From contig JAOAPI010000098.1 of assembly GCA_025462865.1 (NCBI GenBank), positions 1-64,000 of the forward strand: 64,000 bases of DNA, read 5' to 3'. The translations under genes were made by a program, and so were the position numbers. The DNA is from Candidatus Sulfotelmatobacter sp. GTDB lineage: Bacteria; Acidobacteriota; Terriglobia; Terriglobales; Acidobacteriaceae. Of this stretch, positions 19,796-62,812 are shown one piece after another; position 1 is the stretch's first letter; each line of letters begins with the position of its first letter. The notes beneath the pieces are model-generated. The model worked only from the letters and a program-made list of their open reading frames with translations. It was not told the origin of the DNA and did no database searches.

Positions 19796-19877
19796 CCGAG
19801 CGAAGCGAGAGACCTTAGTTCTTCTTGGCAGCATCCGTGTCGCACCGTCAAACACTAAACTCTCTCGCTTCGCTTGG
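19796..19877. repeat. Inverted repeat with GAGCGAAGCGAGAG arms
   Basis: Arms at 19796-19811 and 19862-19877 are reverse complements over 16 bases with one mismatch, enclosing a 50-base loop. The core CTCGCTTCGCT resembles the stretch found in frame inside tgt at 35414-35436. It lies upstream of the DinB-like gene and beyond the end of the UvrC-like gene. Confidence 0.65.
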
Positions 19878-22348: not shown

Positions 22349-22627
22349 ATGAATAAGGCCGATCTGGTTGACAAGATCGCTGGTGCGTGCGAAATCAGCA
22401 AGGCGCAGGCTACGACTGCGATTGATACTGCCGTTAGCAGCATCTCTGGTGCGTTGAAAAAAGGAGATCGCGTGGCTTTGATAGGTTTCGGAACTTTCTC
22501 AGTGTCGCAGAGAAAGGCGCGTAATGGACGCAATCCGCAAACCGGCGCCACAATCAAAATCGCTGCCCGCAAGGTTGCGAAGTTTACCCCCGGGGCCGAA
22601 CTGAAGAAGACCGTCAACAAGAAATAG
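22349..22627 (+). CDS. hup: HU-family DNA-binding protein
   Basis: A nucleoid-associated protein that bends DNA as a dimer. The 92-residue sequence begins MNKADLVDKIA and carries the HU signature GFGTFSVSQRKARNGRNPQT in the beta arm with the invariant Arg-Asn-Pro tip. AAGGAG lies five bases before the ATG, which fixes this start although the frame is open far upstream. It is monocistronic, closed by a strong terminator. IHF subunits look similar, but the sequence suits HU. Confidence 0.96.
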   Translation: MNKADLVDKIAGACEISKAQATTAIDTAVSSISGALKKGDRVALIGFGTFSVSQRKARNGRNPQTGATIKIAARKVAKFTPGAELKKTVNKK

Positions 22628-22655
22628 TAAACAGAACAGAGTCTGGGATCTACGA

Positions 22656-22684
22656 AACGGCAGGGGGTCGGCCCTGCCGTTTTT
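22656..22684 (+). terminator. Rho-independent terminator of hup
   Basis: AACGGCAGGG pairs perfectly with CCCTGCCGTT across a six-base loop and runs into a T-tract, 29 bases after the hup stop. Confidence 0.9.
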
Positions 22685-22702
22685 CGCTGTCCGGAGTTTT
22701 CA

Positions 22703-22761
22703 GTACCGAGTACTTGCTATCGAGTTCCGAAAGGCGGGCGGCGTGACTCGGCACTCGGTAC
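22703..22761. repeat. Inverted repeat with GTACCGAGT arms upstream of ruvA
   Basis: GTACCGAGT at 22703-22711 and its reverse complement at 22753-22761 enclose 41 bases. It ends 19 bases before ruvA and has the tract-like wording of the other dispersed repeats. Confidence 0.6.
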
Positions 22762-22780
22762 GCGTTACTCTCAACTGGTT

Positions 22781-23371
22781 ATGATTGCCCATCTGCGCGG
22801 AACGCTGCTCGCCAAACATCCCAATCAAGTAGTGGTCGAGACGGCCGGCGTCGGCTATGAAGTAAATATCAGCGTTCCGACTTTTTCCGGATTGCCTGCC
22901 ATCGGCGCCGAAGTCGCGCTTCACATCCATACCCATGTGCGGGAAGACGTAATTGCTCTTTACGGATTCCTGCAACCCGCCGAGAAGGTGTTGTTCGAAA
23001 AATTAATGACGGTGAGCGGCATCGGCGCAAAGCTGGCGATCACTATTCTGAGCGGGATGGCGGCGGATGAAATGGCTGCGGCGATTCGCGGCAATGACTT
23101 GGCGCGACTTACCGAAATCCCAGGCATCGGCAAGAAAACAGCGGAGCGCATGGTGTTGGAACTTCGTGACAAGTTGCCGCCGGCGACAGGGCCCTCTGCG
23201 CCATCTGCGCCTGTCATGAGCGCTGTCGAAGAGGACGTCTTATCCGCGTTAATGAACTTGGGCTATCAGCGTGCGACGGCCGAGAAGGCGCTGGCGAGCA
23301 TGTTAAAAAGCGGGAAGGGCGGATCTTTCGATGCAATGTTCCGGGAAGTGCTGGCCGGACTCTCCAAGTAG
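22781..23371 (+). CDS. ruvA: Holliday junction branch migration protein RuvA
   Basis: RuvA binds four-way junctions and loads the RuvB motor. The three domains are present: the OB fold from MIAHLRGTLL, the two helix-hairpin-helix motifs (VSGIGAKLAITIL and IPGIGKKTAERMVLEL), and the flexible linker (PATGPSAPSAPV) leading to the C-terminal domain (ALMNLGYQRATAEKAL) that contacts RuvB. Length is 196 residues. Neither ruvB nor ruvC is adjacent in this window. It converges with mnmE, the stop codons being 18 bases apart. Confidence 0.96.
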   Translation: MIAHLRGTLLAKHPNQVVVETAGVGYEVNISVPTFSGLPAIGAEVALHIHTHVREDVIALYGFLQPAEKVLFEKLMTVSGIGAKLAITILSGMAADEMAAAIRGNDLARLTEIPGIGKKTAERMVLELRDKLPPATGPSAPSAPVMSAVEEDVLSALMNLGYQRATAEKALASMLKSGKGGSFDAMFREVLAGLSK

Positions 23372-23389
23372 CCCCAGGTCGCTTAGCTT

Positions 23390-24871
23390 TTACTTTCCGA
23401 TGCAGAACGTGCTGAAGATCAGGTTGAGGATGTCGTCGGTGGTTGTGGCTCCGGTGATGGCATCGAGGGGCCGCAGCGCATTGTAGAGATCGAGCAGTAG
23501 CATTTCGTGAGGGACTTTCGTCTTGACAGCGTTCGCGGCGACATCAAGCGCGACGAGCGCGTTCTGCACCAAACCCTGATGGCGCACGTTGGTAAGAAAT
23601 CCGGCTTCCGCCTGCGCTCCGGTTTCCCCTCCAATGTGACGCAAAATTTCTGCGCGCAGTTCGGCGATGCCCTCCCCGGTCAATGCGGAGGCTCGAACCG
23701 TTGAATTCTGACCACTGGCCACTGACCACTGACCACCGGCAACCAAGTCGGACTTGTTTCCCACAACGATTGCTGGACGATTCTGAATTTCCCGAAGGAG
23801 TTCATTATCTTCGTGCGTCGACGGCTGCGATGCATCGACCACGACCAAGACCAAATCAGCGTCGGCCAGTGCCTCCATCGATTTCCGTATGCCGATGGAT
23901 TCCGCTTCATCGAGCGCCTGCCGAATTCCGGCGGTATCGACGAGTTGAATCGGAATGCCGCCAATGGCGACCGTTTCGCTAACCAAATCGCGCGTGGTCC
24001 CGGGACTTGCAGTGACGATGGCGCGCTCGCGCTCAACCAGGCGGTTGAACAAACTCGATTTGCCAACATTCGGACGACCGACAATGGCGAGCGTCAATCC
24101 CTGCTGCACGATCTTGCCGTATGCGAATGTGGCCGCAAGTTGTTCCAGCGGGTGGCGGACAGCGGCGATTCGTTCAAGAATCGTTGCGTCAGGCAAAACA
24201 GACACGTCGTCTTCCGCAAAATCGATGCCCGCTTCGAGCACCGCAATCAACTCAACCAATTTCTTCTTGATCGGCTGCAGTCGCTTGGATAGAGCGCCTT
24301 CAAGTTGCTGCGCCGCAACCTTCGCCTGGTAAAGCGTTTGTGAATCGATGAGATCGCGAACCGCTTCCGCTTGCGTAAGATCGATGCGGCCATTGAGAAA
24401 CGCGCGCATAGTGAACTCGCCGGGCTCAGCCAGGCGCGCTCCGGCAGCAATGCAAAGCTCGACGATCTGCCGCAGTACGACTGGCGAGCCATGGGCGGAA
24501 ATCTCGATGATGTCGTCAGTGGTGTAGGAATGAGGTTTGGCGAAATAAGTGACCACGACTTCGTCGATGCGTTGCTCGTGTAGGGCGGGCGCCCCCGCCC
24601 GCCTAGCGACGGACGAAAGTGCCTGTGATGCAAGGAGACCATCCGCGATCTCTGCGAGCTCTCGTTCCGCTGCCGGCGGTCGGACAAGAGTGTCCGACCC
24701 AGATGGTTCGATAACTTCCCCAAAGACCGCCTGTCCAGATTCCATTTCACGATTGAGCCGCAACATCGGCGAAGCAATCTCTAGCGCCCGCGGCCCGGCA
24801 ATGCGCACCACTCCGATGCCGCCGCGTCCGGGCGGGGTGGCGATGGCGACGATTGTGTCGTCGAGGTTCAA
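23390..24871 (-). CDS. mnmE: tRNA modification GTPase MnmE
   Basis: With MnmG it makes the cmnm5 modification of U34 in several tRNAs. The order is folate-binding N-terminal domain (TIVAIATPPGRGGIGVVRI), helical domain, G domain with GRPNVGKSSLFN and DTAGIR, G4 NKSD, and the C-terminal CIGK with its catalytic Cys. The start is taken as TTG 24871; the longer open frame runs into the carbonic anhydrase gene and lacks homology. Two additions are unusual: about 45 residues after GEVIEP, encoded by two palindromic repeats, and about 10 residues after the NKSD motif, encoded by a CCACTGACCACTG repeat. Both keep the frame. mnmG is at 29953, separate from it. Confidence 0.95.
   Translation of the reverse strand: MNLDDTIVAIATPPGRGGIGVVRIAGPRALEIASPMLRLNREMESGQAVFGEVIEPSGSDTLVRPPAAERELAEIADGLLASQALSSVARRAGAPALHEQRIDEVVVTYFAKPHSYTTDDIIEISAHGSPVVLRQIVELCIAAGARLAEPGEFTMRAFLNGRIDLTQAEAVRDLIDSQTLYQAKVAAQQLEGALSKRLQPIKKKLVELIAVLEAGIDFAEDDVSVLPDATILERIAAVRHPLEQLAATFAYGKIVQQGLTLAIVGRPNVGKSSLFNRLVERERAIVTASPGTTRDLVSETVAIGGIPIQLVDTAGIRQALDEAESIGIRKSMEALADADLVLVVVDASQPSTHEDNELLREIQNRPAIVVGNKSDLVAGGQWSVASGQNSTVRASALTGEGIAELRAEILRHIGGETGAQAEAGFLTNVRHQGLVQNALVALDVAANAVKTKVPHEMLLLDLYNALRPLDAITGATTTDDILNLIFSTFCIGK
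23711..23739. repeat. CCACTGACCACTG-type repeat in frame inside mnmE
   Basis: Tandem units of ACTGGCC/ACTGACC encode an extra GGQWSVASGQ after the G4 motif of MnmE. The same repeat is intergenic at 41507-41540, 47881-47914 and 62713-62741. Confidence 0.75.
24581..24605. repeat. GC-rich palindrome in frame inside mnmE
   Basis: GGCGGGCG (24584-24591) and CGCCCGCC (24596-24603) form a hairpin, extended by TAGG/CCTA flanks with one offset base. It encodes Arg/Ala-rich residues (ARRAGAP) inside the N-terminal insertion of MnmE. Confidence 0.7.
24678..24699. repeat. GGTCGGAC palindrome in frame inside mnmE
   Basis: GGTCGGAC and GTCCGACC are perfect arms around six bases. It encodes SDTLVRP at the beginning of the MnmE insertion. 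Confidence 0.7.
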
Positions 24872-24877
24872 GGGGCG

Positions 24878-24883
24878 ATTGTA
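24878..24883 (-). promoter_or_regulatory. -10 element placing mnmE transcription at its start codon
   Basis: TACAAT (five of six to consensus) ends six bases before the TTG start, implying a leaderless transcript. A weak TTGTTC lies 15 bases upstream of it. Confidence 0.4.
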
Positions 24884-24974
24884 GCGGGTAAACTGGAAGA
24901 ACAACCAGCGGCCGAGTGTGATCCGTGAATTTACGGCTCGGCCCGCGCAAAACTTACAACGAGGGGTTCGCAAA

Positions 24975-25472
24975 TTGCCAGTCGCCGACGAACTGCTAAA
25001 AGCCAACGAAGAATTTGTCAGGAACTTTAACCTGGGCGACCTTGCCGTGCGTCCGCGCAGACATCTTGCCGTGCTGGCCTGCATGGATTCCAGAATATTG
25101 TTTGAACGCTGCCTGGGGTTGCATCCCGGAGACGCGCATATGATCCGCAATGCGGGAGGAATTGCCACCGACGACGCTTTGCGCTCGCTAATTGTTTCGC
25201 ATCATCTGCTCGACACGCAGGAGTTCATCATCATTAACCACACGGACTGCGGGTTGTTGAAGGTGCACGAGGAAGAACTCAAACAGAGTCTGACGGAAAA
25301 GATGGGGACACCGGCAGGCGCGCCAGCGCATTTTCACGCCTTTGATGATCTGGAGAAAAACGTACGCGAGCAAGTGCGGCGAGTGAAGACGCATCCGTGG
25401 ATTCCGAAGCATATTCCGGTGCGGGGATTTATTTACGACGTGAAGACCGGCGCGCTGCGGGAAGTGGAATAG
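24975..25472 (+). CDS. Beta-class carbonic anhydrase
   Basis: A zinc enzyme interconverting carbon dioxide and bicarbonate. The ligand set of beta carbonic anhydrases is complete: CMDSR (Cys and the Asp-Arg dyad) and, about 60 residues on, the HTDC motif supplying His and Cys, with the RNAGGIATDDALRSL segment between. About 165 residues, the short subclass often seen in actinobacteria and acidobacteria. The TTG at 24975 follows a GAGGGG ribosome-binding site; a GTG at 24918 would add 19 residues that lack family similarity. It diverges from mnmE with about 100 bases between starts. Confidence 0.9.
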   Translation: MPVADELLKANEEFVRNFNLGDLAVRPRRHLAVLACMDSRILFERCLGLHPGDAHMIRNAGGIATDDALRSLIVSHHLLDTQEFIIINHTDCGLLKVHEEELKQSLTEKMGTPAGAPAHFHAFDDLEKNVREQVRRVKTHPWIPKHIPVRGFIYDVKTGALREVE

Positions 25473-25530
25473 GGTTTCAGTGCGTCCAATCAAACCCCGG
25501 CATTTAGCCAGAGGAGATTCTGTGCAGGTA

Positions 25531-29952: not shown

Positions 29953-32031
29953 TCAAATTGCCGCAGCCTGCTCTCGCCGCTTCGCCTGGATTTCAATGTA
30001 CACATTCACGAGCGACACTGCTGCTGGCGTCACTCCCGGAATGCGCGAAGCCTGGGCCAGCGTCTGTGGCTGGACGTGCGTCAGTTTTTCTTGCATCTCA
30101 TGCGAAAGCCCGCTGACGGAGGCGTAGTTGAACCAATCGGGTATCGAGCGATGTTCCGACTTCTTCATGCGCTCGATGGCACGCTGCTGCTGCTGCAGGT
30201 AGCCCTCATACTTGATTTCCGTTTCCACCGACTTCAGTTCGTTGCGGATTTCCGAAGAAAGACTAACCACGGATTCGCTGGTATTTTCACGGACTTCTTC
30301 TCTTGCAAAGAATGGGGGATCAAGCTCACGAAGAATCGGCGCCATCTGCTCAATCTTGATCTCGGGACGCTTGAGCAGTTGAGCCAGAGTCAGACCAATT
30401 ACCGTAGCGTCCCCGAAACATGTGGGGACGGGCGACTCGCCCTTCCTGCCACGCTCAAGCATGTCGGTGTTGAACTTCGTTCCCTCCAGCAGCTTCTTCA
30501 CCGCTGCCAGCCTTTCTTGCTTCGCCTCAAAGTCATCCCACGCTTCATCCGAGATCAATCCCACCCGCCGCCCGTGCGGAGTGAGCCGGCGGTCGGCATT
30601 GTCAATGCGAAGGTGCAAACGAAATTCCGCCCGCGATGTAAACATTCTGTAAGGCTCATTCGTGCCTTTGGAGATAAGGTCGTCGATCAGGATCGCGGTA
30701 TAAGCCTCGGTGCGGTCCAGAATCAGCGGGGACTGCTCCTTCACTTGCAACGCCGCGTTAATACCCGCCATCAGCCCCTGGCAAGCGGCTTCTTCGTAAC
30801 CTGACGTGCCGTTAATCTGCCCGCCGAGAAACAGCCCCGCGATTTTCTTAGTCTCGAGCGTGCGCTGTAATTCGGTGGGATCGATCGAGTCATACTCAAT
30901 GGCATAGCCCGGACGCAGCATCTCGGCGTTTTCGAGGCCGGGAATTGATTTCAGAATCGCGAGCTGCACATCCACCGGCAGCGATGTGCTCATCCCGTTG
31001 ACATAGATTTCATGCGTGTTCAGGCCTTCAGGTTCGAGGTAGAGCTGGTGCATTTCCTTGTCAGGAAACTTGACAATCTTGTCTTCAATCGACGGACAAT
31101 AGCGCGGTCCAATCGACTGAATCTGCCCGCTGTACATGGGCGAGCGGTGAACGTTCTCGCGAATGATGCGGTGCGTTTCCGGAGTAGTCCACGCGATGTA
31201 GCAGGGAACCTGCGAATCGTGATGTGCCACACGCTTGGTACGAAAACTGAAAGGCGTAGGGTCGTCGTCTCCGGGCTGCTCAGCGAAACGCGACCAGTCG
31301 ATGGTGCGTCCATCAAGGCGCGGCGGCGTGCCCGTCTTGAGCCGGCATCCCCGAAGCCCTAGATTCTTGAGCGCTTCTCCCAGCAGAACCGCATTCGGTT
31401 CCCCCGAGCGCCCTGCAGGATACTGTTGCTCGCCGCAGTGGATTAATCCGTTTAGAAAAGTGCCAGTGGTGATGATTACCGCCTGCGCCCCGACGGTACG
31501 TCCGTCACGTAGCTTTACTCCTCGCACGATTCGGAAGTCGTCGCTAGCCGCCGGTCGTTGGTCGTTGGCAGGATCGGCGACGTCGGTGGCTGTCGCCGCC
31601 GCCGAACGACCATCGGCCAACGACCCCTCCACAATCAGCTCCGCCACTTCCGCCTGCTTGATCTTCAAATTCGCCTGCGACTCCAGCACCTCGCGCATCT
31701 TCAGGCGATACGCCTGCTTGTCGCACTGCGCCCGTGGCGACCACACCGCCGGCCCTCTCGAAGTATTCAGCAACCGGAACTGGATGCCGACCGCGTCGGT
31801 GATCTCGCCCATGATTCCGCCCAGCGCGTCGACTTCCCGCACCAGATGCCCCTTCGCAATGCCGCCGATCGCCGGATTGCAGGACATCTGCGCAATTAAA
31901 TCGACGTTGAGCGTGTAGAGAGCAGTCTTCAGCCCCATGCGCGCCGCAGCCATCGCGGCCTCGCAGCCGGCATGGCCCGCGCCAACAACGACGACCTCGA
32001 ATTGCTCGGTAAACTCCATATCCATGTTCAT
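29953..32031 (-). CDS. mnmG: tRNA uridine-5-carboxymethylaminomethyl modification enzyme MnmG
   Basis: The FAD-binding partner of MnmE. The nucleotide-binding [14 protein letters not shown] is at the N-terminus, and [17 protein letters not shown] and the C-terminal helical domain with [11 protein letters not shown] are present. The start is placed at ATG 32031 with GGGAG eight bases before it, though the frame is open to 32148. Within the FAD domain, about 30 Ala/Asp-rich residues lie between IVEGSLADG and FRIVRGVKL; the corresponding DNA is an inverted repeat. The length of 692 residues exceeds the usual 620-630 partly for this reason. The gene diverges from the CADD-like gene. Confidence 0.95.
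31553..31625. repeat. GGTCGTTGGC inverted repeat in frame inside mnmG
   Basis: GGTCGTTGGC (31560-31569) and GCCAACGACC (31616-31625) are perfect ten-base arms; a further direct copy of GGTCGTTG precedes the left arm. The enclosed DNA codes for the extra Ala/Asp-rich segment of MnmG. Confidence 0.75.
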
Positions 32032-38165: not shown

Positions 38166-38269
38166 AATTGAGTAATTGGGTAATTTAGTAATTGAGTAAT
38201 TTGAAAACCTGATGCGACCTGATCTGGAATTTCAATTACACAATTACTAAATTTCCCAATTACTCAATC
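38166..38269. repeat. AT-rich inverted repeat of GTAATT units between secD and secF
   Basis: The left arm (38166-38206) repeats GAGTAATT/GGGTAATTTA units, and the right arm (38229-38269) is largely its reverse complement, separated by a 22-base loop. It is closely similar in kind to the element at 664-754. If folded in RNA it could influence secD/secF expression. Confidence 0.8.
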
Positions 38270-41506: not shown

Positions 41507-41540
41507 ACTGGCAACTGGCCACTGATAACTGGCTACTGCC
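41507..41540. repeat. CCACTG/ACTGGC-type dispersed repeat
   Basis: ACTGGCAACTGGCCACTGAT and following units lie between exbB and the first exbD. It is the same class as the copy inside mnmE. Confidence 0.65.
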
Positions 41541-41556
41541 ATAGGAGAATGAAGTT

Positions 41557-47880: not shown

Positions 47881-47914
47881 ACGACTGGCCACTGATCACC
47901 GGCCACTGACCACT
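47881..47914. repeat. CCACTGACCACTG-type dispersed repeat between accC and the carrier gene
   Basis: ACTGGCCACTGATCACCGGC and following units, matching the class found inside mnmE, fill almost the whole gap. Confidence 0.75.
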
Positions 47915-47921
47915 GTTTTTT

Positions 47922-62712: not shown

Positions 62713-62812
62713 AGTTGCCAGTGGTCAGTGTCCAGTGGTCGTGTCCCGCATCGCCCTCACCCGCTGGGCTTGGGCGTTTGACTTCATCCGCTTGCATCTG
62801 CGTTAATCAGAA
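62713..62812. repeat. Two dispersed repeat classes between rel and ridA
   Basis: CCAGTGGTCAGTGTCCAGTG at about 62718-62737 is the inverse of the CCACTGACCACTG class. It is followed at 62779-62812 by CATCCGCTTGCATCTGCGTT, another recurrent low-information class. Confidence 0.65.

Follow-up and report, generated by a model that had tools for sequence, protein, structure and literature searches.

Repeat elements within mnmE

The mnmE gene of a Candidatus Sulfotelmatobacter genome contains palindromic and tandem repeats that are read through in frame, raising the question of whether mobile DNA has become part of a conserved protein and, if so, what kind of element is involved. The gene occupies positions 23390..24871 (stop codon included) on the minus strand of the window, that is, the whole 64,000-nt stretch of DNA analysed, as delimited by a match to NCBIfam NF003661 and by translation; its start was taken as the TTG at 24871, and the open frame continues further upstream. 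The product scores 388 bits against the NF003661 (MnmE) profile, for which the cut-off is 380, and its best fold matches are the MnmE proteins of Thermotoga, Nostoc, and Chlorobium and the MnmE-MnmG complex, such that both the family match and the homologues of solved structure place it in the MnmE family. MnmE is a conserved protein that is dispensable in E. coli.

In an earlier note on this DNA, two palindromes and one repeat array had been regarded as three independent elements, each inserted without loss of the reading frame. Both palindromes, at 24678-24699 (GGTCGGACA/TGTCCGACC) and, GC-rich, at 24584-24603 (GGCGGGCG/CGCCCGCC), are perfect inverted repeats, and translation confirmed that the MnmE frame is preserved across all three elements. 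The two palindromes are not independent, however, but together form a single inverted pair of REP hairpins, a REPIN-like unit of 128 nt (24578..24705, no strand assigned) with heads pointing outward and ~73 nt between the hairpins, as delimited from the inverted repeats, DNA folding, absence from solved MnmE structures, and AlphaFold2 confidence (pLDDT). The hairpin at 24578..24603 (plus strand), recognized by its inverted repeat, its genome copies, and a headed-hairpin scan, has a GTGTAG head; its GTAG and stem of at least 8 bp (24580-24603) agree with the design of GTAG-type REPs, in which a GTAG, GTRG, or GTGG head stands beside a stem of 5-13 bp. The hairpin at 24678..24705 (minus strand), recognized by its inverted repeat, its genome copies, and a reading of its flanks, has a degenerate head, with ATCTGG in place of the GTGTGG found in other copies. 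As DNA, the doublet folds with a z-score of -2.4 (equally stable shuffles, 3 of 200), and an Rfam search of positions 22500-25500 gave no match.

The doublet encodes loop 1 of the N-domain of MnmE, comprising ~43 extra residues; in the HMMER alignments as printed, both 1xzp and 3geh lack a match to residues 56-96. An AlphaFold2 model based on 40 sequences (mean pLDDT, 76.7; pTM, 0.56) places residues 61-97, at pLDDT <50, between one strand at 48-54 and another at 101-110, a predicted low confidence that resembles that of disordered loops. The insertion therefore lies in a loop, as had been proposed.

The third element, an array of the heptamers CCACTGA/CCACTGG (23709..23739, minus strand; repeat search and translation), codes for AGGQWSVASGQ in loop 2, between the G4 motif NKSD and the next motif, SALTG. 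According to the AlphaFold2 model, loop 2 (376-389) connects strands 367-372 and 390-393. Of the two lengthenings previously claimed for MnmE, the one in loop 1 stands, while the ~10 extra residues after NKSD do not: loop 2 has 18 residues here, and the aligned loops of Thermotoga and Nostoc are 4 and 3 residues longer, respectively, so the array makes up the native loop length and was rejected as an insertion of extra residues. The recurrence of the array at three other places in the window was borne out by imperfect copies, each outside called genes (repeat search and gene overlap check): a further copy at 47885..47918, a degenerate one at 41508..41541 (neither assigned a strand), and one in reverse orientation at 62714..62740 (likewise without an assigned strand). 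Across the genome, the 13-mer CCACTGACCACTG has 19 matches, compared to 0 for the control, and mnmE is the sole genic match. The loop-2 array is a separate, tandem-repeat type, distinct from the REPs. Cyanobacterial STRRs are heptameric short tandem repeats that, like those seen here, consist of 7-nt units between genes, but here one array codes for an MnmE loop.

REP hairpins across the genome

Copies of the loop-1 hairpins were sought in the whole genome (6.08 Mb in 189 contigs). The core of the GC-rich palindrome, with at most one mismatch, gave 34 matches, compared to 3 for the reversed pattern, and GTCGGACN6GTCCGAC occurs exactly at 3 places; the palindromes therefore do recur elsewhere, as an insertion of dispersed repeats demands. 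With two mismatches, GTCGGACN6GTCCGAC shows no excess in the whole genome (54 strand matches versus 98 for the control), so this palindrome (P1) with mismatches was dropped as evidence by itself. The flanks of the copies reveal a shared design, namely, GTGTGG or GTGTAG followed by a stem of 9-10 bp (e.g., GTGTGGCGCGGGCGCCCTCGCCCGCG). An 849-kb sample (a non-random one, consisting of large contigs with repeat matches plus a 20-kb RAYT region of contig C119) was scanned for GTRG directly ahead of a perfect, GC-rich stem of at least 8 bp; it held 23 such hairpins, compared to 3 in the reversed sequence.

Many of these copies are in genes. Using a simple custom codon-score gene caller, 13 of the 23 hairpins in the 849-kb sample lie within called genes, among which 2 come from the C119 RAYT region (without that region, 11 of 21) and one (C123:27392) may be a chance match. 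Inspection of individual loci likewise placed 17 of 37 copies in genes, a count that omits L006-L009, L012, L014, and L015 (two-mismatch matches that are not REP-like), L001 and L004 (the mnmE site itself), and matches without a locus, and in which four genic copies (L022, L033, L042, and L044) resemble chance matches with no REP head, while two pairs each fall in a single reading unit (L040 and L041 in a RAYT-like frame, L016 together with L037 in one gene). REPs are defined as extragenic, and REPINs are expected to be predominantly so; by both counts, that is not the case here. The copies are dispersed but modest in number; for comparison, 20-100 copies are given for many families in the available text of PMC3733652.

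Outward-facing REP pairs are present in mnmE, in ffh, and in the flanks of RAYT genes, although pairs are few overall and many REPs are single; given these few pairs, no inward-facing one was found among the loop-1 hairpins or the headed hairpins of the 849-kb sample. Among 15-mer families derived de novo from the 849 kb, most are intergenic, but the REP core family is genic at 6 of 9 sites, as is a low-complexity GCC run at 4 of 4; the remaining large families are almost never genic, with 0-1 of 6-11 sites in genes for each. Five of seven typed hairpin examples are free of stop codons in all six frames, with the GTAG-headed hairpin being stop-free in five frames, the valS-type hairpin in four, and the heptamer in four. 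Since 1,278 of 5,000 random 27-mers from the window are also stop-free in all six frames, this feature helps survival within genes but is not a rare property.

Empty and filled sites in conserved genes

In-frame REPs with family support for the host gene were found, besides mnmE, in ffh, the B12-dependent ribonucleotide reductase (RNR) gene, dusB, thiE, threonine synthase (near the C-terminus), homoserine dehydrogenase, agmatine deiminase, uvrD/pcrA, ubiD, mnmG, and valS; homoserine dehydrogenase, agmatine deiminase, and UvrD score under the NCBIfam curated cut-offs and over those of Pfam. A further copy within a gene (L030) could not be matched to any family.

Comparison with congeners provided sites with and without the insert. 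In valS, exactly 27 extra nt directly follow GTGTGG, whereas the sister species G035 has GTGTGG followed by the flank. In ffh, an outward REP doublet is shared with congener G018 and absent from 20 other aligned congeners, with a net gain of 45 nt relative to 17 of these 20; in the other three, an unrelated-looking insert of 15 nt lies close by, and in eight outgroup rows of the alignment the loop has other sequence. Relative to G035, the B12-dependent RNR is 19 residues longer, and UvrD carries a REP where G035 has other sequence at the same place; in threonine synthase, G035 has the REP as well. Homoserine dehydrogenase, agmatine deiminase, and UbiD had no match in the searched part of G035. 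Elements of the IS200/IS605 type insert directly 3′ of a fixed tetranucleotide, without target duplication. Insertion 3′ of GTRG is exact in valS (after GTGTGG) and partial in ffh, in which some empty sites have GTGG or GTAG, but GTGG is absent from the empty site of the RNR.

An indel census of this genome (849 kb) against G035 (1.187 Mb), covering 266 reciprocal-best pairs with at least 65% identity and 83,621 aligned residues, yielded 36 coding indels of at least 6 residues in 21 genes. A hairpin with a stem of at least 8 bp is in the longer allele of 7 of the 36, whereas only 12 of 360 controls have one. Hairpins, REPs among them, thus clearly contribute to the coding indels that separate these close species, but account for a minority of them. 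MnmE itself differs by indels of at least 8 residues in 18 of 21 congener regions, compared to 0-5 species for each of seven other comparable genes, only 8 genes having been represented in at least 5 species.

Turnover of repeat-bearing loops across acidobacteria

A total of 110 mnmE loci (30 from the same genus and 80 from a wider set, 15 loci being identical between sets) provided 95 distinct proteins, including 94 with loop 1 (the exception being the partial gene L101) and 76 in which loop 2 was located. Loop 1, with about two flanking residues counted, has 4-8 residues in 28 of 94 proteins and 12-60 in 66; within the genus (set L074-L103), lengths run from 8 to 55. Its residues vary among aligned congeners, so the phylum-wide conservation that would speak against insertion does not hold. 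Different repeat families, some of them nested, fill loop 1 in different species. Some congeners with filled loops (G007, G022, and G029) have no exact REP core in their genomes.

The link between these loops and dispersed DNA was quantified by counting 20-mers that recur without mismatch outside mnmE. In ~2.07 Mb of sequence that included repeat-selected loci, and for 86 genes with loop 1 located, such 20-mers are found at 169 of 6,765 positions in loop 1, 42 of 4,482 in loop 2, and 7 of 110,986 in the rest of the gene; 23 of 63 loop-1 segments of at least 8 residues have one, compared to 0.7% of matched controls. A recount without repeat- or protein-selected loci (2.30 Mb) gave 156, 24, and 11 positions, respectively, and 20 of 63 segments; with other genomes only, the figures were 125, 5, and 10 positions and 16 of 63 segments. 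Sharing of 15-mers was discarded for its high background (unmasked mnmE copies; 62% of matched controls) and replaced by 17- to 22-mers. GTRG hairpins with stems of at least 8 bp were detected in 25 of 61 loop-1 segments, 2 of 50 loop-2 segments, and 0 of 1,220 controls; altogether, loop 1 has 31 headed hairpins across 28 MnmE genes. Five repeat patterns (F1-F5), which were written post hoc and on which the preceding counts do not depend, match 50 of 68 loop-1, 27 of 76 loop-2, and 13 of 1,880 control segments, with 11 of the 13 control matches due to the loose pattern F4. When mapped on a tree from which the loops had been left out, the patterns require at least 20 (F1), 14 (F2), 11 (F3), and 8 (F4) changes. 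Because support is poor for 44 of the 91 inner branches and a repeat that has decayed past recognition by its pattern is also scored as a change, these figures are indications rather than numbers of events.

This genome and its sister have the same loop-1 frame and flanks, and the common REP layout implies that the insertion predates their split. The right-hand stem, by contrast, differs on both arms between the two (GGCGGGCG/CGCCCGCC versus GTCGGACA/TGTCCGAC), for which the simplest reading is that one REP was exchanged for another. In L097, the peptide HVGTAAxGCPAE appears in both loops of one MnmE. As a separate observation made by eye, a repeat near CCTTCGACAAGCTCAGGGCAGGC is nested in other hairpin repeats in the mnmE loops of L075, L079, L084, L110, and L142, as if hairpins were its target.

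MnmE is not alone in this behaviour. Among 30 ubiD loci, 17 matched the anchors; in 6 of these the loop is empty, with 37 residues separating the anchors, and in 11 it is filled (47-68 residues), by eye with different repeats. In the window, mnmG has a REP-like hairpin with a 9-bp stem and one mismatch (30421..30446, plus strand; repeat search, translation, and family match), encoding 10 residues in a loop that varies in congeners, in which it looks repeat-derived. This genome and 13 others, some partial, revealed two variable MnmG loops. Peptides such as CHSEERSDEESAVA occupy the MnmG loop in L224-L227, L230, L233, and L236, their source presumably being another dispersed repeat, CATTCCGAGCGAAGCGAGGAATC.

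RAYT association and proposed mechanism

The genome has 8 matches to PF01797 (RAYT), 7 of them over the Pfam cut-off. One RAYT gene (L072) has an outward REP doublet of the ffh type on each side, and the match under the cut-off (L073) is surrounded by three REPs, so that the RAYT association typical of GTAG-type REPs is found here. Other headed hairpins lie near L070, and one or two with unrelated stems near each of L068, L069, and L071; no headed hairpin was found in the examined flanks of L066 and L067. Across 37 genomes of the genus, REP core count and RAYT count are correlated (Spearman 0.42, p 0.009, uncorrected for kinship or completeness). Two further observations concern RAYT loci. Near L070 (G000:C62:45358-45663) there are five near-identical GTGGAATCCCACGTTTCGC..GCGAAACATGGGGCA copies, four of them spaced 192-200 nt apart, and by eye this repeat resembles the filler of congener MnmE and UbiD loops. 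At L263 (8105-8764; G000:C119:33105-33764), a frame missed by the PF01797 search has REP hairpins near both ends and the motif VMPDHVHLL, which we take to be RAYT-like.

These results make it likely that the loop-1 insert is an in-frame GTAG/GTRG REP doublet of a type dispersed in the genus and probably mobilised by RAYTs, and that permissive loops have been serially re-occupied. The notion of dispersed palindromic repeats inserted in frame in a tolerant loop is thereby supported. The identity of the elements, their copy number, the empty and filled sites, the position in loops, and the turnover between species are established by the data. That the insertions are mobile is suggested by empty and filled sites and by RAYT association; RAYT-driven movement and near-neutrality in the protein are what we infer. 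Overall, the earlier observation of repeats in mnmE was partly confirmed and its interpretation partly supported.

As a mechanism, IS200/IS605-like RAYTs of the same genomes would probably copy or move GTRG-headed REPs, which would insert both within genes and in intergenic DNA, perhaps favouring the 3′ side of GTRG. Most hairpins being stop-free in most frames, the copies that survive would be those that leave the frame intact, their net length being divisible by three, and that fall in surface loops of conserved proteins. Over the genus, loops that permit this (loop 1 of MnmE and those of MnmG, UbiD, and others) have probably been filled time and again, changed from one repeat type to another, entered by secondary repeats, and eroded. 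In its widest form, the proposal is that of gene-tolerant REPs, mostly stop-free GTRG hairpins copied by RAYTs, for which loops of MnmE, MnmG, UbiD, UvrD, and Ffh serve as serial landing platforms with exchange and nesting, the elements remaining mobile while translated; we put this forward tentatively, as a plausible generalization that falls somewhat short of probable. If true, gene-tolerant REPs would keep supplying proteins with new sequence.

Alternative explanations

The diversity of loop 1 might instead go back to a single REP doublet acquired by rare accident in an ancestor and since altered by point mutation, slippage, and deletion, with no further insertion. Six of 14 left-hand heads do share one offset and three another, and 65 of the 66 long loops fall in one tree group of 72 rows (L182 lies outside), albeit with a support of only 80. 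A single insert, however, does not readily account for several unrelated repeat types at the site, each with at least 8-20 changes on the tree, for sister species that differ in the stem on both arms, for secondary repeats nested inside REPs, or for the same pattern in UbiD, MnmG, and ffh; this history is already disfavoured and seems to us quite unlikely. Ordinary fast-evolving loops with tandem slippage, their likeness to dispersed repeats being chance in GC-rich DNA, would fit the heptameric, slippage-like loop 2, and indel-rich loops are common. Yet 20-mer sharing exceeds that of the rest of the gene ~400-fold in loop 1 and ~150-fold in loop 2 (~230-fold and ~54-fold, respectively, without repeat-selected loci), and the headed hairpins of loop 1 have no counterpart among the 1,220 control segments; together with the valS empty site, these results refute slippage for loop 1, and as a general account it is highly improbable.

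Alternatively, the genic hairpins might be kept for a function in nucleic acid (mRNA structure, translation pausing, or a regulatory or gyrase site) rather than merely tolerated. The 31 loop-1 hairpins have 11 distinct loop-proximal arms, all still self-complementary, and the stability of the doublet fold points the same way, but complementarity was demanded by the search itself, the hairpin is absent from the loop in many congeners, and Rfam offered no match, making such a function unlikely on balance.

Relation to known repeat systems

Rickettsia palindromic elements (RPEs), which had been put forward as the precedent, likewise are palindromic repeats within genes of many functions, but the present repeats are set apart by their GTRG heads and association with RAYTs. 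A closer precedent is the 2013 catalogue of Di Nocera et al. (PMC3733652), the available text of which includes GTAG-type and CGTC-type REPs inside genes, dimers, and association with RAYTs, and assigns RPE-4 and RPE-6 to the CGTC class with no transposase association given. As there described, the repeats share a GTAG or GTGG head, a stem of 5-13 bp, dimers, RAYT association, and copies within repair, helicase, and tRNA-modification genes; moreover, the REPs carried by recB in two Xanthomonas species are not the same, although they lie at nearly matching positions. What differs from that text is that here the same loops are filled again and again, in many species and by several repeat families, and that precise empty sites are available. 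The phyla with GTAG repeats named in it are Proteobacteria, Cyanobacteria, Chloroflexi, and PVC, a list without Acidobacteria, and Koribacter is mentioned once, for transposases with terminal repeats.

The REPIN/RAYT system of Pseudomonas fluorescens SBW25, as presented in the available part of Bertels and Rainey 2011 (PMC3116915), similarly has inverted REP pairs with a spacer and a RAYT gene flanked by the same REPs; in SBW25, however, 14 of 1,067 REP 16-mers overlap genes, compared to the 13 of 23 sampled hairpins here. RepRanger 2025 (PMC12306157) lists acidobacterial genomes, and in its available text the terms "intragenic," "inside genes," "within genes," and "in-frame" are absent. In titles and abstract openings, literature searches on RAYT and Acidobacteria, REP/RAYT in frame, and palindromic elements in genes did not return a description of this case, nor did one on mnmE palindromes among the matches listed or, as a weak test, one on Sulfotelmatobacter repeats among the 10 listed of 5,519 matches. 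Intragenic REPs are thus known; what is new is that, throughout a genus, particular loops have been occupied one time after another, and that this occurs in a phylum outside the 2013 GTAG list as far as its text is available.

With about half of the sampled REP copies in genes and with exact empty and filled sites, this genome offers a natural experiment in the conversion of mobile DNA to protein, in which insertion points allow the target choice of RAYTs to be read, loops of conserved proteins that tolerate 9-50 new residues are exposed, and series of insertion, exchange, and decay are available across related species. To judge from sequence comparison, junk-like DNA repeatedly becomes protein in this soil acidobacterial group through elements that look mobile, and annotators should be aware that, in these proteomes, a hypervariable loop may have its origin in a repeat.

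The window also contains other repeats. AT-rich arrays with units of ~8 nt (GTAATTGA/GTAATTGG) are at 38167-38268 and 662-697, the first forming a 47-nt inverted repeat, and a 24-nt inverted repeat with CGAGCGAAGCGAG (88% complementary) at 19796-19877 overlaps no called gene.
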